Assembly: GCF_011006175.1 (NCBI RefSeq)
Contig: NZ_CP048795.1
Span: 1,480,491 to 1,544,490 of the forward strand
DNA from: Hydrogenobacter sp. T-8
GTDB taxonomy: Bacteria; Aquificota; Aquificia; Aquificales; Aquificaceae
Length of the DNA: 64,000 nt
Direction of reading: 5' to 3'
In this document: positions 1,578-47,502 of the stretch, in pieces
How positions within the stretch are numbered: the first letter of the stretch is position 1
How the letters are laid out: each line of letters starts with the position of its first letter
Translations under genes and position numbers: made by a program
The notes under the pieces: generated by a model
Seen by the model: the letters and a program-made list of their open reading frames with translations, nothing else
What the model was told of the DNA's origin: nothing
Databases searched by the model: none

Positions 1578-1997
1578 TTACAAATACCCCGCCTCAACAC
1601 CTATACATGCATTCCAAACCACACCTATCTTGTCCTTATACTTTTCTATGACCTCTAAATTTTCACAACCGGGCTGTAGCCACACACACTTGGCACCTAC
1701 TTTAAGTGCTTCCTCAAAGATGGGTTCTATATGTGCTGGGTTTCTAAAGACATTTACAATGTCTATGGGCTCTGGCACTTCGGAAAGGGAGGAAATTACC
1801 TTAATGCCCAGTATCTCCTGCCCTGCATACTTGGGGTTTATCAGATAAACCCTGTGCATACCTTTAGCTACCACTCTCTCTGTTACATAGTATGAAGGTC
1901 TTTCTGGGTCTGGAGATATACCAACTACCGCCACAACCTTTGACTCTTTTAACACTTGCAGAGCATCGTCTTGATGTGGATGATGAAGTTCCTTCAT
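1578..1997 (-). CDS. CoA-binding domain protein (YccU-like)
   Basis: A stand-alone Rossmann-type CoA-binding protein of 139 residues. It resembles the CoA-binding domain of succinyl-CoA ligases and of protein acetyltransferases, but has no catalytic partner domain. Visible marks are VVAVVGISPDPERPSY near residue 17, LINPKY, and the tail VWLQPGCENLEV...CIGVE, which match the YccU/COG1832 group. The cellular role of this family is not established. A longer reading to 2105 is possible, but its extra 36 residues do not look like the family and overlap pdxA. The ATG at 1997 is preceded by TATAAT at 2005-2010 and no Shine-Dalgarno, which fits a leaderless message divergent from pdxA. Confidence 0.85.
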   Translation of the reverse strand: MKELHHPHQDDALQVLKESKVVAVVGISPDPERPSYYVTERVVAKGMHRVYLINPKYAGQEILGIKVISSLSEVPEPIDIVNVFRNPAHIEPIFEEALKVGAKCVWLQPGCENLEVIEKYKDKIGVVWNACIGVEAGYL

Positions 1998-2004
1998 GGG
2001 AAGT

Positions 2005-2012
2005 ATTATACT
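2005..2012. promoter_or_regulatory. symmetric shared -10 box, CoA-binding gene / pdxA
   Basis: The 11-bp palindrome AGTATTATACT (2002-2012) holds TATAAT on the minus strand (2005-2010, 7 nt from the ATG at 1997) and TATACT on the plus strand (2007-2012, 6 nt from the ATG at 2019). Only 21 bp separate the two start codons, so both promoters must use this element and any -35 contacts lie inside the opposite coding region. Confidence 0.55.
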
Positions 2013-2018
2013 ACATAT

Positions 2019-2975
2019 ATGGTGAAAATAGGCATAACGATAGGCGACCCTGCGGGAGTGGGACCTGAGCTCATAGTGAGACTTTCCAGATACTTTGACC
2101 CTCAAAAGGCATACATAATATACGGAGAGAAGAAGATAATACAGGCGGTCAAAAGGGAGCTAAGTGTGGACTTTGAATTTTCGGAGATATACACGGTAGA
2201 GGAGATTAAATCTCCCGGTGTATATATAGCGGACTTAAACATAAGCGAAACAGATAGACCATTGCCGTCTTTGACATCAGGAAAAGTAGCGGTTGCATAC
2301 TTGGGAAGGGCTGTGGTAGATGCGGTTTATGGAAAGATACATGGACTTTTGACCATGCCTATAAACAAATTCTGGGCAAGGTTGGCAGGGTTTTCCTACG
2401 AGGGTCAAACGGAGTTTTTAGCTCAGGCTTGCAATGTGAGAGAGTATGCTATGCTTATGTATTCAGAGAAGTTAAAGGTAGTGCCCTTTACCACACATAT
2501 ACCTCTAAGAGAAGTGCCAGAGAGAATAAGAAAAGACGATATCGTTAAAAAGGTAAAGCTAATAGACAGAGAGTTCAAAAGACTTTTTGGACTTGAGCCA
2601 GTAGTTGGCATTCTTGGTCTTAACCCCCATGCGGGTGATATGGGAGCTATAGGGGAAGAGGATATGAAAGAGATTGCACCTGCGGTAGAGGCTCTAAAGG
2701 AAGAAGGCTACAAGGTTGAAGGTCCTCTATCTCCAGATAGTGCCTTTTTGAACATAAACTACGATGTTTATCTGTGTATGTATCATGACCAAGGGCTTAT
2801 ACCTTTTAAAATGCTCGCCTTCAGGGAAGGTGTGAATTTAACGCTTGGAATACCCTTTGTGAGAACCTCCCCAGACCATGGAGTAGCTTATGACATAGCT
2901 TGGAAGGGTATAGCGGATGAAGGTCCATCTCTTAATGCCCTCAGGTTATGTGAAAGGTTGGCAGGAAAGGCATGA
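2019..2975 (+). CDS. pdxA: 4-hydroxythreonine-4-phosphate dehydrogenase
   Basis: Oxidises and decarboxylates 4-phosphohydroxy-L-threonine in the DXP-dependent pyridoxal phosphate pathway. The product meets PdxJ (encoded at 40249-40977). The 318-residue protein starts MVKIGITIGDPAGVGPE, the family hallmark. The three metal-binding histidines are seen in FTTHIPL, LNPHAGDMG and YHDQGLIPFK, and the end has RTSPDHGVAYD. An upstream start at 1956 would add 21 residues foreign to the family and run into the divergent gene, so the ATG at 2019 is chosen. It is coupled to the next gene by an ATGA overlap. Confidence 0.95.
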   Translation: MVKIGITIGDPAGVGPELIVRLSRYFDPQKAYIIYGEKKIIQAVKRELSVDFEFSEIYTVEEIKSPGVYIADLNISETDRPLPSLTSGKVAVAYLGRAVVDAVYGKIHGLLTMPINKFWARLAGFSYEGQTEFLAQACNVREYAMLMYSEKLKVVPFTTHIPLREVPERIRKDDIVKKVKLIDREFKRLFGLEPVVGILGLNPHAGDMGAIGEEDMKEIAPAVEALKEEGYKVEGPLSPDSAFLNINYDVYLCMYHDQGLIPFKMLAFREGVNLTLGIPFVRTSPDHGVAYDIAWKGIADEGPSLNALRLCERLAGKA

Positions 2976-4429
2976 CGATAAAAAAGAGAGTGACTCTTAG
3001 CTTGGTTTTTTCCCTTGCCTTTACCCTTACGGTTTCCTTCCTTATTCTTTACCTAATATCCTCCCAAATCCTTGAAAGGAGACTCGAGGAAACTTACAGG
3101 CTCGTATATGAAAACTATAAAGAGATATTGAAGGGAGAGGTGGAAGAATCGGAAAAGCTTAAAGCCTTAGCAGACTCTGGACAACTTTCTCTTGCGTATC
3201 ATTACATAGAAAAAGCCTCTGGAGGGAAATGTGAGGAGACAGCATATTACCGTGTAACTTCCATAGGACTTCACTACGGTATAAACAGGCAATATCCAGA
3301 AGGTTGTTTCTTTATAGGTGTAAACATTGAAGAAATACTTAGATTTATGGAAAGCCTAATGGGTATAGATTGGGTGGTATATTACGATAGAGATATGGTC
3401 CCTGAAATCGTAGGTGGAAACTTGGATACCTTTATGAAAGATAAGGTAATTATAAACAACATGGTTATTGACCGGTTTTCCAAGCAGTATGTCCTTAATC
3501 TACCTCTCAATGTGAAAGGATATACGCTGTATGGTAGCTTTCTTGAAAAAAGCCTCCTTATGGAGATTCCCCTAACAAACATGAAAGGCTTGCCTGTGGG
3601 TAGAATCATTTTTATAAAGGATATTTCAGGATTATACAGGGAAGCCTACACAGTCCTTTTTGTGCTTGCTCTTTATTCAGTGTTTATGTTGTCTCTTCTT
3701 GCCCTTTTACTCTTTAGGATTGTATCCACTGTGATAAATAGAATAGTTTTCCTAAAGGATGTAACCGCAAGAATAGAGAAGAAAGACTTCGCTGTGATAA
3801 ATCTCCTTGAAAATTCAAAGGAAAGATGGAAGGATGAGGTTTATGAATTAAAGCACAGCATATACAACATGGCTTTGAGCCTAAAATCTGCCTTTGAAGA
3901 ACTTGAAAAGAAGAAATCTGAACTTGAACAGCTTGCATACTATGACCCACTTACTGGACTCCCCAATAGAAGATTTTTCTTTGACCATGCAAGTCTTATT
4001 CTTGAAAGCTCAAAAAGATACGGAAATCCACTTAGCCTTCTCATCATAGATATAGACCACTTTAAGAAAATAAATGATACCTACGGTCATGAGGCAGGCG
4101 ACCTTGTATTAAAGAGCTTTGCAGATATCTTAAAGAAAACCATAAGACAGTCAGACCTCCCAGCAAGGCTTGGGGGAGAGGAGTTTGTTCTTCTTATGCC
4201 CAACACTACCCTCCAACAGGGCAAAGTGGTGGCTGAGAGAATAAGAGTCAGCTTCCAGAATAGCCTTATAGTATATGAAGAAAAGGAAATAAGGGCAACT
4301 CTAAGCGGTGGGCTTGCGAGTTTTAAATCGGGTATTGAAAATGTTGACGACCTCATAAGAATGGCGGATGAAGCCCTTTACAAGGCGAAAGAGTTGGGAA
4401 GAAACAGGATAGAGGTTTATGAGCCTTAG
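2972..4429 (+). CDS. Membrane diguanylate cyclase with periplasmic sensor and GGDEF domain
   Basis: Makes cyclic di-GMP from two GTP. The 485-residue protein has a transmembrane helix at about 10-30, an extracytoplasmic region of about 190 residues containing two cysteines (KCEE, EGCFF), a second helix at about 224-247, a HAMP-like or coiled linker, and a GGDEF domain from about 325. The linker-to-domain signature YDPLTGLPNRR is present and the active site reads GGEEF. An RxxD inhibitory site (RQSD) lies exactly five residues before it, so product feedback is expected. The stop-start overlap with pdxA (ATGA) implies cotranscription. The sensed signal is unknown. It could feed the MshEN-bearing glycosyltransferase at 44862-46757 or the PilB-type ATPase. 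Confidence 0.92.
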   Translation: MTIKKRVTLSLVFSLAFTLTVSFLILYLISSQILERRLEETYRLVYENYKEILKGEVEESEKLKALADSGQLSLAYHYIEKASGGKCEETAYYRVTSIGLHYGINRQYPEGCFFIGVNIEEILRFMESLMGIDWVVYYDRDMVPEIVGGNLDTFMKDKVIINNMVIDRFSKQYVLNLPLNVKGYTLYGSFLEKSLLMEIPLTNMKGLPVGRIIFIKDISGLYREAYTVLFVLALYSVFMLSLLALLLFRIVSTVINRIVFLKDVTARIEKKDFAVINLLENSKERWKDEVYELKHSIYNMALSLKSAFEELEKKKSELEQLAYYDPLTGLPNRRFFFDHASLILESSKRYGNPLSLLIIDIDHFKKINDTYGHEAGDLVLKSFADILKKTIRQSDLPARLGGEEFVLLMPNTTLQQGKVVAERIRVSFQNSLIVYEEKEIRATLSGGLASFKSGIENVDDLIRMADEALYKAKELGRNRIEVYEP

Positions 4430-19398: not shown

Positions 19399-20089
19399 AG
19401 TAGACGAGCCTTCCACAGTTTGGGCATATCACTACCTCCCCCTTTATCAGTCTTGAATAGAGGGCGGAGGGCAGTTTTGTCCCGCAGTTGGTGCAAGACC
19501 CAGAGGAGTCTGCGAGTAGTATAACAGGCAGGCCATGTCTTCTTTTCAGGGCTTCGTATTCATCGAGCACCTCTCTCTCCGTACCCTGCCTTAGCTTGTG
19601 AAGTTCCTCTGTAAGTTTATTGACCCTGCTAAGGAGCTTAGACTGGGAGTATCTTAGGTCCTCAAGCTCCTCCTCAAGCTCCTGTATCTCTTTCAGTAGC
19701 TTCTTGTCTTCTTTATCTTCCTCAAGTTTCTTGAGTTTTTCCTCAAGATCCCTAAGGCTGTTGGTGAGCTTTATAACACAGTCTTCATGCCTTGCCTTTT
19801 CTCTAAGAAGTGCCTTATACTCCTCTGCCTTTTTCACAAGTTGTAACCTCTCTTCCGCCCTTTTTGCACCAGCCTTGCATTCTTCAATCATCTCCCTATG
19901 TTTTTTTAGCTCCCTTTTCAAATCCTCTACGCTTTTGAGGATATCATCCCTCCTTTTTCTCAGTTCCTCTATCCTCTTGACCACATGTTCTGCCTGAGAT
20001 ATAAGCCTTCCAAGTGCGCTTTGTGTTCTTACCAATTCCAGCTCCACCCTCTGAAGCTGGAGCATCTTTTGAAGTTTTTCGTTTTTCAC
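19382..20089 (-). CDS. coiled-coil protein with C-terminal zinc ribbon (CT398-like)
   Basis: About 235 residues. A long charged coiled coil spans roughly residues 10-165. The end has CTNCGTKL and CPNCGRLV, a CxxC/CxxC zinc ribbon. This matches the C4-type zinc ribbon family (COG1579, CT398), whose role is uncertain; links to flagellar or secretion components have been suggested for the chlamydial member. Start choice: GTG at 20089 has TATTAT 7 nt upstream; ATG at 20110 would overlap the divergent mtaD start; ATG at 20065 is also possible. Confidence 0.78.
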   Translation of the reverse strand: MKNEKLQKMLQLQRVELELVRTQSALGRLISQAEHVVKRIEELRKRRDDILKSVEDLKRELKKHREMIEECKAGAKRAEERLQLVKKAEEYKALLREKARHEDCVIKLTNSLRDLEEKLKKLEEDKEDKKLLKEIQELEEELEDLRYSQSKLLSRVNKLTEELHKLRQGTEREVLDEYEALKRRHGLPVILLADSSGSCTNCGTKLPSALYSRLIKGEVVICPNCGRLVYYEGEA

Positions 20090-20095
20090 AAGGAA

Positions 20096-20102
20096 TATAA
20101 TA
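20096..20102. promoter_or_regulatory. shared divergent -10 box, zinc-ribbon gene / mtaD
   Basis: Plus-strand TATAAT (20096-20101) lies 7 nt before the mtaD ATG. Minus-strand TATTAT (20097-20102) lies 7 nt before the GTG at 20089. The boxes overlap by five bases. No Shine-Dalgarno precedes mtaD. Confidence 0.5.
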
Positions 20103-20108
20103 TAAGCC

Positions 20109-21404
20109 ATGTTTGACCTTTTGATTAAGTCCGCCTTTATACCGGACAAGGGCAAGACTATGGACGTGGGTATAAGGGATGGGGTCATAGTGGAACTGGC
20201 TGAGAGCCTGGAGGGAGAGTCAAGGTATACCATAGAAGGTAAGGGTAAAGTGCTTTTCCCATCCTTTGCCAACATGCACACCCATATATCCATGAGCCTA
20301 CTGAGAGGTCTGGGTGCAGACCTTCCTCTTATGGATTGGCTTCAGAAGGTTATATGGGTTTTGGAAGGTGAATTTGTATCTCCAGAATTTGTAAGGGACG
20401 GTGCACTTATAGGAATTGCGGAGGCCATAAGCTCCGGCACGACCCTCTTTATGGACATGTATTTCTTTGAGGAGAGCGTGGCGGAAATTGCCCAAATGGC
20501 TGGCATAAGAGCAGGGCTTGGCTTTGGCATCCTTGACTTTCCCACAAAGGTGGCAAAAACTCAAGAGGAATACCTAAAGAGGGCAAGAGAATTTATAAAA
20601 GACTTCAAAGGACAGGAGCTAATATTTCCAACCCTTTGTCCTCATGCGGTCTACACCTGCTCTCCAGACACCCTGAGAAAAGCTCTCCAGCTTGCCCTTG
20701 AGGAAGATGTATACATTCACATCCATGTAGCGGAAACCCAACAAGAAGTGGACGCATCCTTAGAAAAGTTTGGCAAAAGACCTGTGGAACACTTATACAG
20801 TCTTGGTCTACTTACAGACAAAACTTTGATGGCTCATGTAGTATGGACTACAGAGGAAGAAAGGGAAATGATAAAGGAGAAGGGTGCAAAGGTCTTGCAC
20901 TGTCCTGAGAGCAACCTAAAACTCGCCTCTGGCATTGCACCCATAAGCGACTATATAAGAAGAGGCATTCATGTATGCCTTGGCACTGATGGACCAGCTT
21001 CCAATGACAACCTTGATATGCTTGAAGAGTTAAGCCTTATGGCAAAGCTACAAAAGGGTGCAAACCTTGACGCAAAAGCAATGGATGCAAGAACTGCCCT
21101 AAGGATAGCAAGCGAAGAAGGCTTTAGAGCGGTGGGTATAAAAGCAGGAAGGGTTGAGGTAGGATACGACGCAGACCTTATACTTCTTGACCCTAACAAA
21201 CCTCATCTACAACCCCTTTATGACCCCATTGCCCAGCTTGTATACTCCGCAAAGTCCTCAGATATAGATACGGTCATATGCAAAGGAAGGGTCTTAATGG
21301 AAAAGGGAGAGCTAAAAACCATAGACCAAGAAGAGGTTCTCTTTGTTGCCAACAAGTGGAAGGAAAAAATACAAGGTTTTTTAAAGAGTAAAATTCTATC
21401 CTAA
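20109..21404 (+). CDS. mtaD: 5-methylthioadenosine / S-adenosylhomocysteine deaminase
   Basis: An amidohydrolase of 431 residues that deaminates methylthioadenosine or S-adenosylhomocysteine. The metal motif HTHISMSLLRG (residues about 57-67) is present, followed by HVAETQ near 208, HVVW near 242 and GTDGPASNDNLD near 295. These match the MtaD/SsnA/TrzA branch. The Leu-Asp-Pro C-terminal segment is normal. The gene ends immediately before the tRNA-Pro, with no gap. Leaderless translation is likely, since the TATAAT box ends 7 nt before the ATG. Confidence 0.9.
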   Translation: MFDLLIKSAFIPDKGKTMDVGIRDGVIVELAESLEGESRYTIEGKGKVLFPSFANMHTHISMSLLRGLGADLPLMDWLQKVIWVLEGEFVSPEFVRDGALIGIAEAISSGTTLFMDMYFFEESVAEIAQMAGIRAGLGFGILDFPTKVAKTQEEYLKRAREFIKDFKGQELIFPTLCPHAVYTCSPDTLRKALQLALEEDVYIHIHVAETQQEVDASLEKFGKRPVEHLYSLGLLTDKTLMAHVVWTTEEEREMIKEKGAKVLHCPESNLKLASGIAPISDYIRRGIHVCLGTDGPASNDNLDMLEELSLMAKLQKGANLDAKAMDARTALRIASEEGFRAVGIKAGRVEVGYDADLILLDPNKPHLQPLYDPIAQLVYSAKSSDIDTVICKGRVLMEKGELKTIDQEEVLFVANKWKEKIQGFLKSKILS

Positions 21405-21477
21405 CGGGGTGTGGCTCAGGTGGCAGAGCGCCTGCTTCGGGAGCAGGAGGTCAGGGGTTCAAGTCCCCTCACCCCGA
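21405..21477 (+). tRNA. tRNA-Pro (anticodon CGG)
   Basis: A full cloverleaf can be drawn: acceptor CGGGGTG/CACCCCG, D-stem GCTC/GAGC, anticodon stem CCTGC/GCAGG with loop TTCGGGA (anticodon CGG at 21438-21440), T-stem AGGGG/CCCCT with loop TTCAAGT, and discriminator A. C1 pairing and the CGG loop are typical of bacterial tRNA-Pro. CCA is not encoded. Its 3' half is repeated in degraded form at 24082-24117. Confidence 0.97.
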
Positions 21478-21478
21478 T
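21442..21478 (+). repeat. tRNA-Pro 3' end acting as island boundary (left copy)
   Basis: The last 37 bases of the tRNA, from AGCAGGAGG to CCCCGAT, align with 24082-24117 at 31 positions with one gap. This is the layout left by site-specific integration into a tRNA gene: the intact tRNA is on one side and a partial copy on the other. Confidence 0.6.
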
Positions 21479-21512
21479 GTGAACACTCAAAGCTAAGTCT
21501 TGATAGACCTTT

Positions 21513-22331
21513 AATAAACATAAAGCGGACGAACAAGGAAGAAGTAGAACAATACCGTAAGGAGTTCAATGAACTACTCAAAGACCTGATGGCTCAAACC
21601 ATCGGCAAAATGCTACAGGCAGAATTGGATGAATTCCTTGGCTACGAAAAATACAAACGCTCCTATAACCCTAACTCCAGGAATAGAGCCTTGTATGTGG
21701 TAGCTGGAATAGACACAGATGGCTACAAGGAAATACTTGGCTTTTGGCTTGCAAAAGAAGAAAGTGCCAGCTTTTGGGTAAATGTTTTCAATGACCTCAA
21801 GGCAAGAGGAGTAGAGGACATACTTGTAGTGGTAAGCGACGAGCTAAAGGGTATACAAGAAGCAGTAAGGAGCGTATATCCCATAAGCGACCATCAGAAG
21901 TGTCTGGTTCACGAGGTAAGGAACAGTCTAAAGAAGGTCAAATACAAAGACAGGAAGAGAGTAGCCAGTGCCTTGAGGGCAATATACATGCCCGCCACGC
22001 AGATGCAAGCTAAGGAGAACTTTGAGAGGTTTAAGAGGGGATACCAAGTAGAGTATCCACAGGTAGTGAAGGAGTGGGAAAGAGACTTGAGGAGATATTG
22101 ACCTTTTACAGATATCCGTATGAGATAAGGAGTATGTTGGCGATTACAAACTTTGTGGAGAGTATAAACAGCGAGATAAGGAAGGTGATATATGGCAAGA
22201 GGGTATTTCCGAGGGATGAGGCTTGAAGGTATGTTATGGGGTAGCGATGGACATAGAGGAGGATAAAGCCTTTGAGGGATTGGGAGAAAATATATGTCCA
22301 GCTGATAATTCTTTTTGAGGGCAGGCTATGA
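21513..22331 (+). pseudogene. degraded IS256-family transposase
   Basis: The first readable part (EEVEQYRKEFNELLKDL, then LDEFLGYEKYKRS) jumps directly to RALYVVAGIDTDGYKEILGF near 21686. The section holding the first catalytic Asp is therefore deleted. The second Asp region (VSDELKG) and QKCLVHEVRNSL remain. The frame stops at 22101. The rest continues in other frames: FYRYPYEIRS, NFVESINSEIRKV and FPRDEA, then after another shift LRDWEKIYVQLIILFEG ending at 22331. At least two frameshifts plus the deletion make it inactive. Clear terminal inverted repeats were not found. An ATG at 21409 lies inside the tRNA and is not a real start. Confidence 0.88.
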
Positions 22332-22334
22332 AGT

Positions 22335-22499
22335 ATGGTAGAATTTACACAAATTTTGAAACAGTTCCTAAATCTCCTCTATATAGCCCTCACAAGAACA
22401 AGCCTAAAAACTAAATTCCCTCAAGAAATTCAAGACACCCTTGATTTTATTAGTAGTTTGCAAAGAGCAATAGGCTATAATACAATTAATGACACATGA
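22335..22499 (+). CDS. small ORF (54 residues) overlapping the methyltransferase start
   Basis: Begins MVEFTQILKQFLNLLYIAL and looks like two amphipathic helices. It starts 3 bp after the transposase remnant and ends 11 bp inside the methyltransferase gene (22489-22499), a layout that would couple translation. It could be a control gene for the restriction system, but no helix-turn-helix pattern is evident, so it may equally be a chance reading frame. Confidence 0.35.
   Translation: MVEFTQILKQFLNLLYIALTRTSLKTKFPQEIQDTLDFISSLQRAIGYNTINDT
22476..22481 (+). promoter_or_regulatory. -10 box of the methyltransferase gene
   Basis: A perfect TATAAT ends 7 nt before the ATG at 22489, with no Shine-Dalgarno and no convincing -35 box. 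Transcription would begin at or next to the start codon, so this mRNA would be leaderless. Confidence 0.45.
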
Positions 22500-23334
22500 G
22501 TATAGCTTGACAGAGAATATAAACATGAGACAAGAATTTAATCACAACATTGAATATGTAATAGGTGATGCGAGAGTTTATGAACCTGACGAGGAGGTGC
22601 ACCTTGTAGTAACATCTCCACCTTATTTCAATTATATAGATTATGGAACTCAACAAGGGCTTGAAAACATAAACAATTACCATGAATATATAGAGGAGTT
22701 GAAAAAAGTTTTTCAGAAAATTTACAACTTTATTACATTAGGAGGAACGATTTGTATAAACATTACTAATATGAAATCAAGAAAGAAAAGGGAGGGACAA
22801 TCTTTCTTATATCCAATTGTAGCAGATGTAATAAAATTTATGATTGATATAGGGTTTGTGTTTTTTGACGAAATTATTTGGGTGAAGGGTTATGGTAACA
22901 ACGGAGCGTTAAAGGGAAAACCTCTTTTTGGTTCGTATCCGTATCCACCTACTCCTAAAATTCTTGATAGCATTTTTGAAAATATCTTAATTTTCAAAAA
23001 AGCAGGTAAAAGGACAGTTTCCAAGGAAATTAAAGAGTTGTCTAAAATTAGCAAAGATGAATGGATATTATATACAAGGGGTATTTGGTATATAGAACCA
23101 GACAAAAAAAGTAAGCATCCTGCATCTTTTCCCTTAGAAATTCCTATGAGATTAATAAAACTTTACTCTTTTTATGGTGATACTGTTTATGACCCATTCG
23201 TAGGTTCTGGAACGACTCTTATAGCAGCAGCTATGTTAAATAGAAGAGGGATTGGATTAGACGTAAATCCAAAATATAAAAGTGAGTTTGAAAAAAGATG
23301 GAAAGAATTAACATTAAACAAGAACTTATTTTAA
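22489..23334 (+). CDS. DNA methyltransferase, beta class (probable N4-cytosine type)
   Basis: A 281-residue S-adenosylmethionine-dependent DNA methyltransferase. The catalytic motif IV VVTSPPYFNYIDY (near residue 38) comes before the AdoMet-binding motif I DPFVGSGTTLIAA (near residue 237), which is the beta-class order. TSPPY is typical of N4-cytosine enzymes, though some N6-adenine enzymes share it. The recognition sequence is unknown. The gene is AT-rich against its surroundings and overlaps the nuclease gene by 37 bp. An alternative start is the ATG at 22525. It likely protects the host against the neighbouring nuclease. Confidence 0.88.
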   Translation: MTHEYSLTENINMRQEFNHNIEYVIGDARVYEPDEEVHLVVTSPPYFNYIDYGTQQGLENINNYHEYIEELKKVFQKIYNFITLGGTICINITNMKSRKKREGQSFLYPIVADVIKFMIDIGFVFFDEIIWVKGYGNNGALKGKPLFGSYPYPPTPKILDSIFENILIFKKAGKRTVSKEIKELSKISKDEWILYTRGIWYIEPDKKSKHPASFPLEIPMRLIKLYSFYGDTVYDPFVGSGTTLIAAAMLNRRGIGLDVNPKYKSEFEKRWKELTLNKNLF

Positions 23335-23954
23335 AATCTATATGGTTTACATGTGCATCAATATCACAAACATTTGAAAGGACAAGTAGGTCAAGAGAGG
23401 ATATTTTATATCACGCATGGAGAATATTTACAGGAAAATTAGGAGAACTTACATTTGCAAACTGGTTAGTAGATAAAAATTTATTGTCTTCAGAAGATTA
23501 TAAAAAATATGAAGATAATGCTTTAAGTATCTTTTGGGGTAAAACTAATGTAGATGAATTTGATTTACATGTAAATGGTTATTTAATAGATATTAAAACT
23601 CTGCCAGAACATTCTCATAAATACCTTATAATACCTAAGGATCAATTTGAAAATCAACCCAAAGATATATATGTATGTTTGAGGCTGGAACATTCACTAA
23701 ATAATAATGAAATGAAGATTAAATTATTAAACAAGAATTGCTTTGAAATCTACACTCTGTTAAAAAACAATACTATAAAAGAACAGTATAGATTCACCGC
23801 AGAAATTCTGGGTTTCATTGAAAGAAGGACAACCCTTTTTGAATTTTATGAAAAAGATGCTGTATGCCCTGAAAAATCTTGTTATAGAATACATATTAAT
23901 AGATTAAGCAACATAGGAAATCTTTTTCCTCTTTTAAACCCTTTAAGTAGTTGA
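23298..23954 (+). CDS. putative type II restriction endonuclease (PD-(D/E)XK)
   Basis: A 218-residue protein without a family match I can name. Residues about 93-110 read DEFDLHVNGYLIDIKT, which fits the D...DxK core of PD-(D/E)XK nucleases. GKLGELTFANWL earlier may supply the helix glutamate. The position directly after, and overlapping, a DNA methyltransferase supports a restriction role. Codon and base use match the methyltransferase and differ from flanking genes, so the pair probably moved together. Activity and target are unproven. Confidence 0.68.
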   Translation: MERINIKQELILKSIWFTCASISQTFERTSRSREDILYHAWRIFTGKLGELTFANWLVDKNLLSSEDYKKYEDNALSIFWGKTNVDEFDLHVNGYLIDIKTLPEHSHKYLIIPKDQFENQPKDIYVCLRLEHSLNNNEMKIKLLNKNCFEIYTLLKNNTIKEQYRFTAEILGFIERRTTLFEFYEKDAVCPEKSCYRIHINRLSNIGNLFPLLNPLSS

Positions 23955-24081
23955 CAGATGCTATGTTCAACAATACCAATTTTAAACTTTCATCAAAACT
24001 CCACATTAAGTCTTTGAACTTCAACAACTTTAAGATGCTCACCCATAATGTTAGACAGAGCAATAGAAATCATGCATCACA

Positions 24082-24117
24082 AGCAGGGGGTCGGAGGTTT
24101 AAGTCCCTCACCCTGAT
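24082..24117 (+). repeat. degenerate tRNA-Pro 3' end (right island boundary)
   Basis: AGCAGGGGG-TCGGAGG-TTTAAGTCCCTCACCCTGAT resembles the tRNA segment at 21442-21478, with five substitutions and one missing base. No matching 5' tRNA half is present upstream, so it is a partial copy and not a second tRNA. The surrounding gap 23955-24235 (281 bp) has no other gene that I can support. Confidence 0.6.
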
Positions 24118-24235
24118 TTAAAGATATGCTGATATGCTTAAATAAGTGTCAGTAATCTTTACTACAATCAACTTTTATAGCCTCACCACACCTACACAGA
24201 TAAAATTTTTTTCTCAAAAGCACAGGAGGAAAAGC

Positions 24236-25204
24236 ATGAAAAGGTTTTTAGTCCTTAGTGTAGTCAGCATTTCCTTGGCACAGCCAGTGATTGACCCACC
24301 CTTTGCGGATAGGCTCTTTCCCTATGTAACCTATGGAGAGGTTTGGACAGGCACGCCTGCGGTAATTAAGGATGCAACTATCCCAAATACACTTGTGGTC
24401 TATGGCTCAAAGGAAGACCCTGATATAGTTGCCCTTGCGAGCAGGATAGCCTACTACCTCGGACAATGGACGGATGACATAGGCTTTACCGCAGAGGACG
24501 TTCGTCAATCTAAAATGCCAGAGCTTCTCGTAAGCGACCAAAGGCTCAAAGGGCTTAGCTACCAGAATCTCATAGTGGTGGGAGTAAACAATGAAATAGT
24601 GAAGGAGGTGGGTTTGAGTTTTGAAAAGCCTACTATAAAGGTAGTGCAAAAAGATGGCAAAAACATACTAATTGTAGGTGGTGCTAACAAGGAACAGATA
24701 ATGCAGGCAGGTAGGTATCTTGCAGATGTAAGGCTCAACTTCAAAGCAGGTGCATACAGAACCTTTTTCTCCTTTGTAGCTCTTAGGGGGTATATAGAAA
24801 AGGGTGAGTTTGATGCAGGGCTAAGGCTTATAAGAAGCCCCATGGGGCTGTCCGCCTGTGGAAAGAATATGGCTTTGGCAGGTCCAATGGTAGCCCAGTG
24901 GGGAGATGACCTCAAGGCAGTTGTCAGACACAGAAACAACATCCTCTACAATGAGCTTCCAAAAGCTCTTGAAGCAAAAGACAAAGAAAAAGCGGTTAAC
25001 CTCTGGAAAGAAGCCATGCTTACTTGCTACCAGTGCCATCAAGGCATAAACGTGCCACAGGTAAGAAGGTTCAAACCCATAGAGAGCATACACGCCAAAC
25101 ACCAGCAAATAGCAGAGAGCTTTGGTCTTGTAAAGGTTATTGGCACAGAAAAGTCCTGCATAGCCTGTCATGCGGGACCTACAACAATAAAAGGCTACAA
25201 GTAA
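24236..25204 (+). CDS. secreted diheme c-type cytochrome with N-terminal alpha/beta domain
   Basis: A 322-residue protein with a signal peptide (MKRFLVLSVVSISLAQ). The C-terminal third has two heme sites, CYQCH near residue 266 and CIACH near residue 308. A further cysteine (SACGKNM) is not in a heme motif. The first 180 residues have alternating beta and alpha patterns (NLIVVGVNNEIVKEVG, NILIVGGANKEQI) resembling domains seen in surface-layer proteins; this is only a resemblance. The start is fixed by AGGAGGA (24224-24230). Probably periplasmic electron transfer; partner unknown. It is followed after 14 bp by a membrane protein gene. Confidence 0.85.
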   Translation: MKRFLVLSVVSISLAQPVIDPPFADRLFPYVTYGEVWTGTPAVIKDATIPNTLVVYGSKEDPDIVALASRIAYYLGQWTDDIGFTAEDVRQSKMPELLVSDQRLKGLSYQNLIVVGVNNEIVKEVGLSFEKPTIKVVQKDGKNILIVGGANKEQIMQAGRYLADVRLNFKAGAYRTFFSFVALRGYIEKGEFDAGLRLIRSPMGLSACGKNMALAGPMVAQWGDDLKAVVRHRNNILYNELPKALEAKDKEKAVNLWKEAMLTCYQCHQGINVPQVRRFKPIESIHAKHQQIAESFGLVKVIGTEKSCIACHAGPTTIKGYK

Positions 25205-25218
25205 GTTATACTTAACAT

Positions 25219-25854
25219 ATGGCGAGTAAGAAGTGGGCTGTGAGCTTTTTTCTCACAGCTCTTTTCCCTATTCTCCTTACACTGTTTGTAGTTCGCCTTG
25301 CCTTCACAGACATTTTTGTGGAGTTCCTCTATAAAAGAGTAGACCTGCCACCAGACCCAATGCCCTATGAGCTAAGACTAAGCATAGCCAAACTCGGGCT
25401 TAGGTCTGTTCTTTCAGACAGTGGCATGGAAGAGTTCAAAAGCTCTGGAATTTTTAACGAAAGAGAGATAAAACATATGGAGGATGTGAAGAGGCTGTTG
25501 AGTTTTTCCTTTGGTTTTATGTATATCATCCTTCCTCTTTGGCTTTTTGGATTTCTTAGTTTAAAGAATAAAAGGGAGATGGGAAAGGTTTTATTCTTTG
25601 GTGGGCTGTTGCTTGAAGTTTTTGTCCTTTTTGTGTTAATTGTTTCTGCGGTCAACTATGACTGGCTTTTTACTGCCTTTCATAACCTTTTCTTTGACCC
25701 TTATTCGTGGCGTTTTAGAGACGAAGACATGCTTTTGAGGGTCTATCCCATGGACTTTTGGTTTAAGGCAACCTTGTATACTGCCTTAGGAGTTTTTCTT
25801 GTAAATCTTTTCCTTCAGACCCTTGGTTTTATCCTTTGGAGAAGAAGTTCCTGA
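25219..25854 (+). CDS. DUF1461/TIGR01906 membrane protein, similar to lipoprotein intramolecular transacylase Lit
   Basis: A 211-residue protein with about four membrane helices (about 10-28, 93-113, 122-145, 183-205). Between the last two is FHNLFFDPYSWRF followed by MLLRVYPMDFW, the conserved FHxxFF...W...L..P..fW pattern of the DUF1461 family. In Gram-positive bacteria a member, Lit, moves an acyl chain within lipoproteins. I infer family membership but not that activity here. TATACT (25207-25212) lies 6 nt before the ATG with no Shine-Dalgarno, so it may have its own leaderless promoter. It overlaps the GGDEF-EAL gene tail to tail by 26 bp. Confidence 0.72.
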   Translation: MASKKWAVSFFLTALFPILLTLFVVRLAFTDIFVEFLYKRVDLPPDPMPYELRLSIAKLGLRSVLSDSGMEEFKSSGIFNEREIKHMEDVKRLLSFSFGFMYIILPLWLFGFLSLKNKREMGKVLFFGGLLLEVFVLFVLIVSAVNYDWLFTAFHNLFFDPYSWRFRDEDMLLRVYPMDFWFKATLYTALGVFLVNLFLQTLGFILWRRSS

Positions 25855-40977: not shown

Positions 40978-42356
40978 GACTGCCCTTCTATGAGGATTAT
41001 ATCATCATCCCCTAAATACTCGCCCATCCTTATTTCTAAAAGTTCTGCTACTACAAACCCCACATTCTCAATACTGTAAGGGCTTGTCTTATAAGCGTAA
41101 GCAGTATCACCAGCTGTGTAATAGCCAATTTTTGAACTGGTCTTTATACGAACAGTCCCTTTCAGAACTGTCCAGGTTCTGTTATGGTGCATGTGCATAC
41201 GATTACTTATGGACCTTCCAGGAAGTATACTTAACTTACTTATTCTATAGCCTTGTCCCGTCTCCAAGATTAGCTCTGTTCCCCACTCGTAGCTATTTTC
41301 AACATGGAAGTAGGCTTCCTTATAACCTTTCTCCTTTAGAAGTTTTACTAAATCCCTTACTTTTCTAGCACTTCCCCTTTTCATCACAAGAATCGCATCC
41401 CTATTTTCTATTACCGCAATATCATTTACATCTAAAAGACATACTAACTTACTGGTGCTATAGACTAAGGAATTTTCACTATCAAAGCATAGACTCTTAC
41501 CCATGCACACGTTGTCTCTATCATTCTTTTCTATAACAGAATAAAGACCATCAAAAGAACCCACATCACTCCAAAATATATCCATAGGAACCACAGCACC
41601 CCTTCGTGTCTTTTCCATCTCCATGTAGTCAAAGGCTATATCAGGAAGTCCACAGTAGTTTTCAAGAAAAGTTTCATAACCCTCAGACATCACTCCGTAA
41701 ATCTCTGGAGCATTTAACTTAAACTCTTCAATGGCAGTGCGGACGCTAAAGACAAAGTTTCCTGAGTCCCAAAAGTAAGACCCTTCCTCCAATAATTTTT
41801 GAACCAATTCACCCTTGGGTTTCTCTATAAACCTTTCCATCCTATAGGCTTTTATCTCACCCTGCTCTTTAAGTAAAGCACCCGCCTTTATGTATCCAAA
41901 GTTCTCTTCTGGTCTGGTAGGATGAATGCCAAAGGCTACCACGTACCCATCCTCAGCGACACTGCTGGCAAACCTCAGATACTCCACAAACCTGTCCTCT
42001 GGTTTTATAAGCTGGTCAGAGGCAAGCGTAAAAATTACCTCCTCTTCCTGCACACCCAAAACCTCTTTCATGTATAGCAAGCCCAGGGCTATGGCTGGAC
42101 CTGTGTTTTTTCTACAAGGCTCTGTAAGAAGTGTATACCCCTCATAAGGATAAAGGTCATTTATGACCTTATGCTTATAATCTTTATGTGTTATTACAAG
42201 TATATTCCTGTGGTCTACCAGCTTTAGAGCTCTTTCGTAGGTCATTCTCAAGAAGGAAATATCATCAAATAGCTTTAAAAACTGCTTTGGATGGTTTTCT
42301 CTTGATAGAGGCCAAAGCCTTGTGCCACTACCACCTGCCAGTATCATAACCTTCAT
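40974..42356 (-). CDS. manC: mannose-1-phosphate guanylyltransferase / mannose-6-phosphate isomerase
   Basis: A 460-residue bifunctional-type enzyme that forms GDP-mannose. MILAGGSGTRLWPLSREN is the nucleotidyltransferase loop. GNFVFSV and FIEKP follow. The C-terminal 110 residues are a cupin (MHMHHNRTWTVLKGTVRI), the isomerase-like domain of type II enzymes. It is the most informative member of the polysaccharide locus, because it implies a mannose- or GDP-mannose-derived polymer. Overlaps of 4 bp occur on both sides. Confidence 0.93.
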   Translation of the reverse strand: MKVMILAGGSGTRLWPLSRENHPKQFLKLFDDISFLRMTYERALKLVDHRNILVITHKDYKHKVINDLYPYEGYTLLTEPCRKNTGPAIALGLLYMKEVLGVQEEEVIFTLASDQLIKPEDRFVEYLRFASSVAEDGYVVAFGIHPTRPEENFGYIKAGALLKEQGEIKAYRMERFIEKPKGELVQKLLEEGSYFWDSGNFVFSVRTAIEEFKLNAPEIYGVMSEGYETFLENYCGLPDIAFDYMEMEKTRRGAVVPMDIFWSDVGSFDGLYSVIEKNDRDNVCMGKSLCFDSENSLVYSTSKLVCLLDVNDIAVIENRDAILVMKRGSARKVRDLVKLLKEKGYKEAYFHVENSYEWGTELILETGQGYRISKLSILPGRSISNRMHMHHNRTWTVLKGTVRIKTSSKIGYYTAGDTAYAYKTSPYSIENVGFVVAELLEIRMGEYLGDDDIILIEGQS

Positions 42357-43429
42357 AAGCTAACCTCCTTAAGGCTTTTTCTAAAAGCAGAGAGCTTGTC
42401 AAGACTTCCATATTCGTTATTCTTTACCAGCCCATAACTCATAAAAGAAAAACTTCTCAAGCCTAATCTGTATAATCTCCCTATGTAGTCTGAGTTATTC
42501 ATATAGGTCATGTCATCCGCAACCACGTCTGCCCTCTTATTATTTGGCATGTAGTGAGCAAGATGCAAAGGCTTACCATACTGAGAGAAAAACTCACAAT
42601 TTTTGAGTATTCTCTGAGGATTGCCATAGCCCCCGTTTTCAGACATTTTATAGTCAAACATGCTTTGAAAAAATATGGCATTGCTGTTCTGGATAACAGG
42701 CTCAAAAAATCTTATGAAATTTATGCCTTCTTGAAATTCTACAAGCCATCCACCAAAGCATATCCCATAAACCGCATCCACACCACTGTTTTTTATGATG
42801 TCTATGGCATTAAGAAGATTGCTTCTTAAACGAGTGTAATAGTCTTTAGTAAGGTCATTTATACTATCCGTATAAGGAATTTCATGTTTGCAAGTTTGGT
42901 TATACCTACAAGCGGTATAAGTAGATTGTTCAGTGGCAAGGGCTATGTATACCTTACCTTTTACTTGAGACTTTAAAATAGACAAAACATCCCGAAGGTC
43001 CTGCAAAAAGGTTTGGGATATGTGATACTCTCCGTAAGTTGGTCCACCAAAAGAGGGGTTTTGACCGTCGTAGTTTTCCCAAGTTATTAGCATAAGACTG
43101 TAGCCAAGCTCTGACCACTCCTTAAAGCGTCCCTTATTAGCCCAATCCCTTATAAAGTGCATGCTGTTTCCATAAGGTTGTTTACGGTCATCTACAGAAC
43201 CATTTAACCAAAAATTAAGTATGTTTGGTTCAAGAATGTCTAAAACTCTTTTTCCTTCAGGATCATAACCATTAACAAGCCTTTCTGGGTCTTCCCCAAG
43301 CCCAAAGAGTATGGACCTCCCCTGCGGTAGCTGTGGTTGTGGCTGAAGAGAGGATGAATTACCGCCAGAACTTCCACAACTTGCTACACCCAAAAGTAAG
43401 CTAATCAGAAAAGTTCTTCTGTCTACCAT
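42353..43429 (-). CDS. lipoprotein with probable TIM-barrel fold, putative glycosidase
   Basis: A 358-residue lipoprotein: MVDRRTFLISLLLGVASC ends in a lipobox (VASC), followed by a Ser/Gly/Gln/Pro linker. The body has alternating strand-helix segments (YSLMLITWENYDG, KVYIALATEQSTY, VDAVYGICFGGWLVE), which look like a barrel hydrolase. I cannot name the family. In polysaccharide synthase loci such enzymes usually trim or edit the chain, so that role is inferred. It overlaps both neighbours by a few bases. Confidence 0.6.
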   Translation of the reverse strand: MVDRRTFLISLLLGVASCGSSGGNSSSLQPQPQLPQGRSILFGLGEDPERLVNGYDPEGKRVLDILEPNILNFWLNGSVDDRKQPYGNSMHFIRDWANKGRFKEWSELGYSLMLITWENYDGQNPSFGGPTYGEYHISQTFLQDLRDVLSILKSQVKGKVYIALATEQSTYTACRYNQTCKHEIPYTDSINDLTKDYYTRLRSNLLNAIDIIKNSGVDAVYGICFGGWLVEFQEGINFIRFFEPVIQNSNAIFFQSMFDYKMSENGGYGNPQRILKNCEFFSQYGKPLHLAHYMPNNKRADVVADDMTYMNNSDYIGRLYRLGLRSFSFMSYGLVKNNEYGSLDKLSAFRKSLKEVSL

Positions 43430-44865
43430 TTATAAACTTCCCTATTAGTGTTAGTGTATAGCATATATTTTAATCCATCATATACAAGGTAAAAATTTGG
43501 GACAAAGCCAGATTCAGATTTGATAAATCTCTTTTTTATAGCATCTTTTGAATTTCTACTTATCAACATACAATCTGCAAAGGTTATAGGGTTTGACAGA
43601 GCGGTATAGTATGTGTAATTGTGCGGGAGTATAAATATATTGGAACTTCCTGTAAAATAAACCACTGGAAAGGTGTAAGCATCGTCAGAGAGAATTTTTT
43701 TACACCCGTAGCCAATTAAAAGTTCCGCAATTATCCTGTCTTCTTTTATGCTTATCCTTTCTGGTATGATTCTACCTTTGAGGGAACCAATGAATTCTTT
43801 CTCATTTAAATCTTTTGAATGATCTGGTATAAAGAAAGCAGAAAGAAAAGCTATAATCATGGAAAACAAGTAGGGCTTTGAGTTTGCTATCCTTAGGTAA
43901 AAAGCAAAGACAAGGGAAAAGAGTAGAAACAAAACGGATGAATACATGTATGGGAAAGACATGCCAAAATATATGGAGAAATAAAATACAAATATGGGTA
44001 CTATATAAACCAAAAACAGAGGAGTTGTATATAAAAGTTTAAACCTCTTTATGTAAGGTATAACTAAGAAATACGGTAGAATGAGAAGGCTATTTAAAAA
44101 CAACTGCTTTAAGGTAAGGTAAAGACTTCGTATAAATGAGCCAGATGCTTGTATAAATTCATCAATAACAGGCTCACTTCTGAAAAAGGAATAAGGACTT
44201 TGAATAAAATTAAGGGGATTACCTGTGAAAATCCAGTTTAAATAGAGCCAAGAAAAAAGGAAAAATACAACAGGAGTAATTTTCACCACCACAATTGCAA
44301 CCCTGTAGGGAAAATTTTCTTTACTAGTCAACAGAAAAAGGCTGATAAAGTATACAGGAACTACAAAAAGACTCCTAAAGTCTACAAAGAATGTTATGCC
44401 AAGAAGCAAACCTGCGACGAATATATACAAGGAATATTTTGTTTCTATATGTCTTACTGTGTAAAAAACAGATAGGGAAAGCAGTATATAGAATAAAAGC
44501 ACATCAAATCTCTGGGAAGATAGAAATAGGTATAGAGGATTGAGCATAATAATAGAAATACTCAAAATAGATAGAGCGTCTGTTTTATAAGTTTTTATGA
44601 GATATGTTATTAAAAATGTGGAAAACAAAGCACTTATGATAGGTGAAACTAAAAGAGGGTCGTTGACTATAAGGAAAGGCACAAAGGCGATAGGTGGATA
44701 AACAAAACCTATATTTTCCACTCTAAAACCACTTTGCACCGCTATCAATGCTTTTTCCGCAAAGAAAAGTAAATTGCTATGGATATAATCAAACTTAAAA
44801 AACAGCTCTTGTGATATATAAAAGTAAAGCAAGAAGAGTATAAAAAATACTATGAAGGCTATCAT
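43423..44865 (-). CDS. polytopic membrane protein, probable GT-C-type glycosyltransferase
   Basis: A 480-residue protein with about ten or eleven membrane helices in the first 370 residues and a soluble tail of about 110. The first loop holds FKFDYIHSN and FVYPPIAFVPF, which resembles the acidic first loop of ArnT/PMT-like (GT39, GT-C) enzymes; these use lipid-linked sugars. Identity is uncertain, and an EPS polymer-modifying or translocating protein is also possible. It is AT-richer than the surrounding genes. Linked by overlaps of 4 and 7 bp. Confidence 0.6.
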   Translation of the reverse strand: MIAFIVFFILFLLYFYISQELFFKFDYIHSNLLFFAEKALIAVQSGFRVENIGFVYPPIAFVPFLIVNDPLLVSPIISALFSTFLITYLIKTYKTDALSILSISIIMLNPLYLFLSSQRFDVLLFYILLSLSVFYTVRHIETKYSLYIFVAGLLLGITFFVDFRSLFVVPVYFISLFLLTSKENFPYRVAIVVVKITPVVFFLFSWLYLNWIFTGNPLNFIQSPYSFFRSEPVIDEFIQASGSFIRSLYLTLKQLFLNSLLILPYFLVIPYIKRFKLLYTTPLFLVYIVPIFVFYFSIYFGMSFPYMYSSVLFLLFSLVFAFYLRIANSKPYLFSMIIAFLSAFFIPDHSKDLNEKEFIGSLKGRIIPERISIKEDRIIAELLIGYGCKKILSDDAYTFPVVYFTGSSNIFILPHNYTYYTALSNPITFADCMLISRNSKDAIKKRFIKSESGFVPNFYLVYDGLKYMLYTNTNREVYKW

Positions 44866-46757
44866 GAGCCAACTACCGGTGGTTTGTATTTGGTTATGCC
44901 ATGTTGTGTCTTTTGCCAGTAGAAGGGCTTTGTAAACAATTCATATAGTGCTTTATATGAAGCTATAGAATGAAGTATCCAATATATTGGATTTAAAAAA
45001 GCGTAAGGAAGTAGTTCGTAATAGCCTCTTTTGAAAACTGCAATCATATTTAGGTAAATGCCTATAAAATTACCTATTAGGAGATTAAATAAAGATACAT
45101 GTAGCAATAATGGAGGGAATATTGGTTCATAAGTCTTTGTTTGAGTTATAAGCCATATTAAAAACATAAACCACATTATAGGGTTCATCAGAAATGTAAG
45201 AGGAGTCCCTCCTATTAGAAATAGGAAAGATAACATTCCCTTAAATCCGACGGTTTTGTAAAGTCTTTTTAGGTTTCTTGAGTGCACTAAAAAGGTCTGC
45301 ATGTATCCTTTAATCCATCTTGACCTCTGTCTTATCCAGTTTTTTAATTTTGCGTTTGCCTCCTCATAGGTCGTGGAGTTAATTATGCCTACTTTGTATC
45401 CTTTCCCAAAGCCTCTGACCCCAAGGTCTGCATCTTCTGTGGTGTTAAAGGGATCCCACGCGCCTATCTCACGAAGCTTTTCCACATCAAAGTGGTTGCT
45501 TGTGCCTCCAAGAGGAATGGGTAGTTTAAGGTTGAAAAGACCAGGTAATAGATAGTCAAACCAGTAAGAATACTCAAGAGTAAACATCTTTGTAAGAAAG
45601 TTTTCATCCTTGTTAAAGTAGTTTAGTGCTGCCTGAAAACATATGTAATCTTTGCCAGCCTTTCTAAAGGCTATAACTGCCTTTTTTAGTTGGTCCGGCT
45701 CAGGTATGTCCTCCGCATCGTATATGGTTAGATATTTCCCTTTGGCAAAAAACAAACCGTAATTACACGCCTTTGGTTTTGTTTTGGGAATACTGTTGGG
45801 TACTATAATAAAACGCCAGTTGGCTGGTGGTCTGTGGTCTTTTGCAGCCTTTAATGTTTCTGTATCATCCTCCTCAAGAAGCAGAATAACATCCAGTTTA
45901 TCCTGGGGGTAGTCCATCTTTTTTAAACCTTCCATCAGTATGCCGACAACTTCAGGTTCTTTGTATACAGGAACAAGTATCGTATATACAGGCAATTCAT
46001 CATCCTTCAAAGCTTTAACCTCTTCTTCTGTTATGAACTGCTCCATTTCACTTTTTGCCCCCGCTATACTAACGACAAGTTTGAATCCTATAGAAAGAAG
46101 GTAAAAAACTTGTGCTATTCCTATAATAGTTATAAGAGTAAATACAGCATTTATATAAAGTCCAATTAACACTGAAAAAAGCACAAAACCCATAAAGAGA
46201 ACCTGCATTTTTGAAAAAACTAAAGATGCAGAATACTCAGGAGATAAATAAAATAACCCCTTAATCGCCTTGTCTATTAGCAAATCCTTATAGATATATT
46301 CAAGAGTTTTTATAAGGTCAAGGTCAGTTATAACCACTAACTCTGTCTTGTATCCACTAAAGTGCCTGTTTATAAACTCATCAAGCTCAATACTTCCAGG
46401 GTTTGACACAAAAAGTTTTACAGTATTTGTATATTTATCTAAATTTGCGGGTATAACCTCATATCTTATAAGTTCTTGAACTTCAAAACCCTTAATAAAT
46501 TCAGCGTTAATTTGCATAAGAATCTTTTCTGTTCCCAGTAAGAAAGGAAGGTTAAAATGTTCTGCAAGTGCCCTATAAAGGTCAATTCTCCTAATATAAC
46601 CAAGAGAGGCAAGTATCCATCCTAACCTCCCACCGCTTTTTTCCTGATATTCAAGAGCTTCTTTAAGTTGCTCTTCTGTGATATAACCTTTTTCAACTAA
46701 TATACTACCGATCAAGCTTCTTTTAGAAGCTATACCATAAATTGAAGAAGAAGCCAT
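44862..46757 (-). CDS. MshEN-GT2 polysaccharide synthase (c-di-GMP-type regulatory domain fused to processive glycosyltransferase)
   Basis: 631 residues. The N-terminal 150 residues are an MshEN/GspE-N domain, with both 24-residue c-di-GMP-type motifs visible: LIGSILVEKGYITEEQL...AL..Q and RLGWILASLGYIRRIDL...AL. Two membrane helices follow (about 190-235). Then comes a family 2 glycosyltransferase with YDAEDIPEPD, TTEDADLG and QRSRWIKG, the D, DxD-like, TED and QxxRW residues of processive synthases such as BcsA, and three or four C-terminal helices. E. coli NfrB has related parts. The ATG at 46757 is preferred because GGTGGGAG lies 6 nt upstream; the start overlaps the barrel gene by 35 bp. 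Confidence 0.9.
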   Translation of the reverse strand: MASSSIYGIASKRSLIGSILVEKGYITEEQLKEALEYQEKSGGRLGWILASLGYIRRIDLYRALAEHFNLPFLLGTEKILMQINAEFIKGFEVQELIRYEVIPANLDKYTNTVKLFVSNPGSIELDEFINRHFSGYKTELVVITDLDLIKTLEYIYKDLLIDKAIKGLFYLSPEYSASLVFSKMQVLFMGFVLFSVLIGLYINAVFTLITIIGIAQVFYLLSIGFKLVVSIAGAKSEMEQFITEEEVKALKDDELPVYTILVPVYKEPEVVGILMEGLKKMDYPQDKLDVILLLEEDDTETLKAAKDHRPPANWRFIIVPNSIPKTKPKACNYGLFFAKGKYLTIYDAEDIPEPDQLKKAVIAFRKAGKDYICFQAALNYFNKDENFLTKMFTLEYSYWFDYLLPGLFNLKLPIPLGGTSNHFDVEKLREIGAWDPFNTTEDADLGVRGFGKGYKVGIINSTTYEEANAKLKNWIRQRSRWIKGYMQTFLVHSRNLKRLYKTVGFKGMLSFLFLIGGTPLTFLMNPIMWFMFLIWLITQTKTYEPIFPPLLLHVSLFNLLIGNFIGIYLNMIAVFKRGYYELLPYAFLNPIYWILHSIASYKALYELFTKPFYWQKTQHGITKYKPPVVGS

Positions 46758-47502
46758 GTGCATCTCCCACCCTTCTGCCATAGAGGGTTTTCTGATAACC
46801 TGGCACTAAGGAAAGATTTCCTAATTTTATTCTTGGTGCTATATTTACCTGCACCAGTTTATAGTCTGGTTCAAGAAAAACATTTTCACCAATTGATTTC
46901 CTCTTGCCATTTCCAAGACCAATTTGAGCATCAACAAAGGTCAGAAGCTGAAGGCTCTGAGTTATGTTTATACCGCCACCGCTGTATGCCCTTATCTGAC
47001 TTGAAGGATAACCAAAGTAATATCTATAACCCACACCAGAATCCCAAAAGCCCCAATTACCAGAAAATCCGTATAGTAGACCGCCCTCTACTGCAAACCT
47101 TCCGTATCCTATTCTTGGATTATCCTTTATGGAGTAGCCTGTAGGCATGATTAAATTTCCATAAAGAGATAAGGAGTCTCTTTGACCCTTACGCACATTT
47201 CTTATAATTCCAAGCTCAAAGTCTCCCAAACCAGAAGTTTCACCATCTCCACATTCTAACCAGCTATAGGGTAATTTGAAAACAGCAGTATGTTTTGGGT
47301 CTATTCCGTATTCACCATAGATTTGTAGCTCTCTTTTTTCAAAGGTGCATCCTATAGGACGCCTTTTACTGTCTTTATCGTAATATTTTGTTGCTTTTTG
47401 GTAGTTAAAACTCGTTGAGATAAAAAACTCACCCTCTTGCCTGACCCACGCTGAGGCGAATACAAATGAGCTTGATAAGAGTACAAGAGAAAGAGTCCTC
47501 AT
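46723..47502 (-). CDS. outer-membrane beta-barrel protein of the polysaccharide locus
   Basis: A 259-residue protein with a signal peptide ending near FASA and about ten alternating amphipathic strands (ISTSFNYQKA, DSLSLYGNLIM, GVGYRYYFGY). It ends in WYSF, the C-terminal aromatic of barrel proteins. It sits between the BcsB-like gene (ATGA overlap) and the synthase, so it may be the exit pore for the polymer, although it lacks the TPR scaffold of BcsC-type exporters. The TPR protein at 32366-34003 could be too far to count. Confidence 0.72.
   Translation of the reverse strand: MRTLSLVLLSSSFVFASAWVRQEGEFFISTSFNYQKATKYYDKDSKRRPIGCTFEKRELQIYGEYGIDPKHTAVFKLPYSWLECGDGETSGLGDFELGIIRNVRKGQRDSLSLYGNLIMPTGYSIKDNPRIGYGRFAVEGGLLYGFSGNWGFWDSGVGYRYYFGYPSSQIRAYSGGGINITQSLQLLTFVDAQIGLGNGKRKSIGENVFLEPDYKLVQVNIAPRIKLGNLSLVPGYQKTLYGRRVGDAHGFFFNLWYSF

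Follow-up and report, generated by a model that had tools for sequence, protein, structure and literature searches.

The window analysed here is a stretch of 64,000 nucleotides (G000:C1:1480491-1544490) in a single-contig 1.81 Mb genome. It contains an intact tRNA-Pro gene followed by two predicted enzyme genes, remnants of two insertion sequences (IS) and a decayed copy of the tRNA 3' part:

21405..21477, + strand: tRNA-Pro (CGG), intact (ARAGORN and Rfam)
from about 21432/21442, + strand: left attachment copy, the 3' part of the tRNA-Pro (direct repeat)
21478..21516, no strand: 39 bp separating the tRNA from the IS relic; probable left end of the integrated element
21517..22365, + strand: IS256-family relic (NCBIfam and IS homology)
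22489..23334, + strand: predicted beta-class amino-methyltransferase, 281 aa (Pfam, PADLOC and PDB matches)
23298..23954, + strand: predicted PD-(D/E)XK restriction endonuclease, 218 aa (motifs E50 (GKLGE), D89 and D98-x-K100; fold model)
23949..24004, no strand: IS5-family terminal scrap, 56 bp (81-85% to four places in G013, a genome of the same genus)
24073..24117, + strand: right attachment remnant, a decayed tRNA-Pro 3' copy (repeat alignment), with normal chromosomal flank after it

An insertion bounded by a tRNA-Pro repeat

Alignment confirmed the partial copy of the tRNA-Pro 3' end that the first-pass annotation had placed 2.6 kb downstream of the gene. The copy at 24082-24117 was identical in 31 of 37 aligned columns with one gap (83.8%), and under looser scoring it reached back to 24073, in the anticodon arm. 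Its local score of 24 is far above chance: when both strands of the window were scored in 282 other pieces of 500 bases, none exceeded 15, and 10 Markov-shuffled windows reached no more than 18.

Thirteen other genomes of the same genus were searched for the locus, of which 11 yielded the full upstream flank with the tRNA; G005 and G011 had no readable flank. The site is empty in 6 of the 11 (G013, G002, G004, G006, G008 and G010), with the downstream flank directly behind the tRNA. The cleanest case is G013, whose flanks are ∼91% identical to those of the window: window positions 20028-21486 aligned to 529-1987 and 24082-25616 to 1943-3478 of one continuous locus, in which a single tRNA is immediately followed by the flank TTTAAAGA. 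We regard G013 as decisive for the empty site because one continuous stretch spans both flanks with one tRNA, which sets the insertion at ∼2,640 bp, repeat to repeat. A direct repeat of the tRNA 3' end and an empty site in relatives, the features of a tRNA-integrated mobile element, were thus both found, and the gene order is not common to the sister strains with which the first-pass annotation had suggested comparing it. Since the same spot is empty in close relatives, the acquisition is recent, and the insertion probably represents a fairly ordinary acquired defence.

The remaining same-genus genomes differ at the site. G001 and G012 carry other DNA there (about 1.2 and 0.95 kb), and the downstream flank is absent from the stretches read in G009 (13.9 kb) and G007 (14.9 kb). 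The contig of G003 breaks off 10 bases past the tRNA; of these bases, 9 match the left junction of the window, which is only suggestive of a common left junction. A downstream contig of the same genome carries a tRNA-end remnant (score 18), decayed in a different way, before the shared flank; the 400-odd bases preceding this remnant have no similarity to the window insertion. We considered an integration hotspot and set it aside: no second attachment copy was found in the longer stretches of G001, G007, G009 and G012, each of which has one tRNA copy, so repeated integration is not claimed beyond G003. Five loci from other genera (L026-L030) aligned to the upstream gene only.

No integrase open reading frame (ORF) was found within 21478-24081, and the insertion is therefore called a remnant rather than an element. 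It resembles tRNA-targeted genomic islands in its 3' tRNA repeat and in the empty site in sisters, but unlike them it has no integrase left. Four Phage_integrase matches occur elsewhere in the genome, all distant and none tied to the tRNA-Pro site. A tyrosine integrase gene lies ∼6 kb from another methyltransferase match (G000:C1:818127-825000), a possible second restriction island.

The broken IS256-type transposase described earlier was recovered with an NCBIfam E value of 2.8e-48; its frame is broken after 22101, and IS homology continues to about 22365. The right terminal repeat GAAACAGT is retained (22358-22365), the left one is gone, and there is a net internal deletion of ∼246 bp. Members of the IS256 family have an intact transposase between two terminal inverted repeats; this copy has lost its left end as well as some of the frame and is a relic. 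A copy 98% identical over 733 columns (L068, G000:C1:1305635-1306367) also has this deletion; the shortened form may thus have been mobilised in trans. The IS5 scrap matches at least four places in G013; the two inspected share an element of ∼1.0 kb that carries a DDE transposase.

The composition of the two-gene segment is unlike that of its neighbours, in agreement with the earlier description of an AT-rich pair. Its GC content is 29.8%, compared with 45% in the upstream gene and 42% over the window, and the GC3 values of the two genes are 0.26 and 0.18 against 0.44-0.46 in two neighbouring genes.

A methyltransferase gene overlapping a nuclease gene

Both genes are intact ORFs, and they overlap by 37 bp. 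Apart from two short antisense frames within the methyltransferase gene, 22489-24081 has no other ORF of at least 60 aa. The cassette thus consists of adjacent genes for a methyltransferase and a predicted endonuclease, the role of the latter being assigned by motif and fold, with no ATP-dependent translocase or specificity subunit, as is characteristic of type II systems. A lone methyltransferase with one small PD-(D/E)XK-type nuclease next to it, and neither helicase nor specificity subunit, makes it similar to type II systems with PF01555 beta-class methyltransferases (PvuII-like layout).

The methyltransferase matched the Pfam family N6_N4_Mtase (E 3.1e-38) and the PADLOC model MTase_II (E 1.9e-63). 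Its closest solved structures by sequence are 2zie (E 1.8e-44; the 2zie-2zig entries are a putative modification methylase) and the DNA cytosine-N4 methyltransferase 8s9n (E 7.4e-19); adenine enzymes in the PDB also matched, more weakly. Amino-methyltransferases are divided into alpha, beta and gamma classes by motif order in a passage of PMC2890505. Motif IV precedes motif I here (TSPPY at residues 42-46 and DPFVGSGTT at 235-243), and the protein is therefore of the beta class. A passage of PMC6712171 describes S/DPPY/F motifs as the hallmark of the enzymes that methylate cytosine at N4, and DPPY is found in adenine enzymes too, according to a passage of PMC2890505. Judging from the SPPY motif and the 8s9n match, the enzyme probably forms N4-methylcytosine (m4C).

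The nuclease carries a GKLGE...D-x8-D-x-K pattern. Alignment of six related proteins showed G46-K-L-G-E50, D86, D89, D98, K100 and T101 to be invariant in all six, and the conserved E, D and (D/E)xK residues of a PD-(D/E)XK enzyme correspond to E50, D89, D98 and K100. An AlphaFold model (pLDDT 81.5, pTM 0.83) has the expected order of helices and sheet strands. Apart from one SPARDA complex, the best 18 rows of a VIA-align comparison were restriction, resolvase or homing nucleases. The leaders, with Z scores of 5.0-7.2 in a range (below 8) that can reflect a common arrangement, comprised the Eco15I N-domain (7.2), I-Ssp6803I (7.0), Hjc-type resolvases (6.9), NhoI, DpnI, HincII, NaeI and SwaI. 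Foldseek gave no match to the model in the PDB at E <= 0.001 (best 1.1). In BFVD, 28 matches reached E <= 0.001, mostly unnamed phage proteins but including one named restriction endonuclease and one named HNH endonuclease. The nuclease search that the first-pass annotation had proposed as a challenge to its own reading therefore pointed to PD-(D/E)XK nucleases and not to a non-nuclease family.

The further remark that this protein resembles no family that can be named also held: nothing convincing was found in Pfam, NCBIfam, PADLOC or PHROGs. A 29-residue match to a PHROG entry without an assigned function (E 6e-4) was set aside, and the one PDB sequence match (E 0.88) was judged to be chance. 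The absence from Pfam, NCBIfam and PADLOC distinguishes the nuclease from those of PvuII-like systems, and no solved structure is similar to it by sequence, unlike the methyltransferase.

Relatives of the two proteins

Both genes lie side by side again in a Persephonella genome (G103, locus L078) that belongs to the same order as the host and to another family. The methyltransferase there is 60% and the nuclease 42% identical (range 42-44%, full-length homologue), which supports regarding the two genes as a probable unit. The genes in G103 are divergent rather than tandem as in the window, so that their coupled expression has not been preserved, and they have different neighbours; we take the flanking genes in G103 to be lpxD-like and rpsO-like. 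Three cysteines (C148, C190 and C195, in a CPEKxCY motif) are conserved in the window and Persephonella nucleases and absent from the phage relatives; they possibly form a metal site.

The nuclease is otherwise rare. It was found in 1 of 61 genomes searched (its own), in 3 of 136 in a search of the phylum (its own, G103 and, weakly, G076), and in none of 13 other genomes of the Persephonella genus searched. Single- and two-sequence scans of viral contigs and a single-sequence scan of genome contigs found no relatives of the nuclease. A profile built from the window and Persephonella nucleases and run on the ORFs of loci L001-L098 retrieved plasmid and phage relatives with E values of 3e-14 to 5e-3, in a small database. 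The nucleases in the Streptococcus phage Javan105 and in viral contigs L083-L088 share the GKLGE...D..D...D-x-K-T pattern with the window protein; they are only about 22-26% identical to it, lack its ∼30-residue insertion and accompany other methyltransferases.

The genes beside these relatives support, but do not prove, a restriction role for the nuclease. In Javan105 the start of the nuclease gene overlaps the end of a REase_II gene (PADLOC E 3.5e-64), and three methyltransferase genes lie opposite. Among the six viral contigs with nuclease relatives, REase_II relatives are present in four (L083, L084, L085 and L088) and methyltransferase genes in four (L083, L084, L087 and L088). The relative in G076, another genome of the same family, adjoins a ResIII helicase gene labelled REase_III by PADLOC, and Lactiplantibacillus plasmids have theirs between LlaJI-type and Eco57I-type genes. 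We also observed a conserved prophage cassette, composed of a nuclease relative, a REase_II gene and two or three methyltransferase genes, in L083, L084, L088 and L046.

It is possible, and we propose it tentatively, that the nuclease belongs to an undescribed PD-(D/E)XK restriction-endonuclease family with members in thermophilic Aquificota, in prophages of streptococci and on plasmids of lactobacilli. Members would do the cutting in type II pairs and supply an accessory nuclease to larger restriction cassettes, and the one in the window would be heat-stable with a new specificity. Only the nuclease family is new here; the system as such belongs to a known kind.

Relatives of the methyltransferase were found at five loci in a scan of genome contigs and at none in a sequence scan of viral contigs. 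The nuclease accompanies it only at the Persephonella locus and is absent from the ORFs of the other four (L079-L082). Two of these methyltransferases (L079 and L080, 59% and 65% identical) are without such a nuclease in the DNA examined, showing that the methyltransferase can exist alone. On a Calditerrivibrio plasmid (L097, 2815-4281), a related methyltransferase gene is followed by one for an HNH endonuclease near an IS256-like element; a nuclease of another type is there paired with the same methyltransferase group.

Proposed origin and activity of the cassette

Taken together, the locus is best explained as the decayed remains of a tRNA-integrated element in which a type II restriction-modification pair survives, a reading to which we assign a probability of about 0.72; the enzyme activities, the shared target, the mediation by an integrase and the modified base are parts that we infer. 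The repeat, the empty site in G013, the intact genes, the motifs and the Persephonella recurrence all bear out the initial proposal of a decayed tRNA-Pro island with a candidate type II pair; the lack of an integrase in the 2.6 kb counts against it. A mobile element would have inserted itself at the 3' end of tRNA-Pro(CGG); the tRNA would have been made whole again at the element's left end, and the original 3' end, moved to the element's right end, would have decayed. Loss of the integrase with most of the element and its cargo, and insertion and decay of the two IS elements, would then have left the IS256 relic, the IS5 scrap and an intact two-gene cassette. The methyltransferase would mark a short target sequence on host DNA, probably at N4-cytosine, and the nuclease would cut the same sequence when unmarked on incoming DNA. 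The retention of restriction-modification pairs is often explained by post-segregational killing, which may also be why this pair was kept. Literature searches brought up no paper on this island or gene pair.

The pair might instead have arrived by IS activity or homologous exchange at a locus already bearing a tRNA-end remnant, integration and acquisition then being separate events. Its position between the IS256 relic and the IS5 scrap would fit such a history, as would the unrelated DNA adjoining the G003 remnant, the other inserts in G001 and G012, and the sites without the downstream flank in G007 and G009. We nevertheless think it unlikely: the two IS types differ and hence form no composite transposon, and the repeat encloses the entire insertion, which is missing from G013 as one block.

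A second alternative accepts a genuine restriction-modification cassette but holds it to be inactive or unexpressed in this host. Observed-to-expected ratios of every 4- and 6-base palindrome were compared between 464 kb of the host genome (L099-L118 plus the window) and 400 kb of G013 (L119-L138). No clear genome-specific avoidance emerged relative to G013; strong avoidance was common to both, with GATC somewhat lower in the host. This result and the decay all around the pair would be expected of a silent cassette, but both frames are open and full length compared with the Persephonella homologues, and the catalytic motifs are kept, making inactivity rather improbable. That the nuclease is a homing-type, resolvase-type or nicking DNA-processing enzyme beside a solitary methyltransferase is still harder to credit, for although I-Ssp6803I and Hjc-type resolvases are among its fold matches and methyltransferase relatives occur without it, the two genes are adjacent in two families of the order, with locus and orientation differing between them, and distant nuclease relatives adjoin restriction genes.

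As a probable restriction-modification pair in a decayed tRNA-integrated element, the locus provides a clean example, in a deep-branching thermophile group, of such a pair being kept while its carrier decayed. If active, the nuclease would be a thermostable restriction enzyme whose family is not yet catalogued, and it would account for a set of nucleases without names that neighbour restriction genes on prophages and plasmids.

Two further observations were made. GGCC, CTAG, GTAC, GATC, GCGC, TCGA, AAGCTT and GAGCTC are strongly under-represented in both species (roughly 0.07 to 0.4 of expectation), which suggests an old, lineage-wide restriction pressure. On the minus strand of the window, an AT-rich block at 42353-49454 (mostly 32-39% GC) encodes a family-2 glycosyltransferase and a BcsB-like protein, and is possibly an acquired exopolysaccharide operon.
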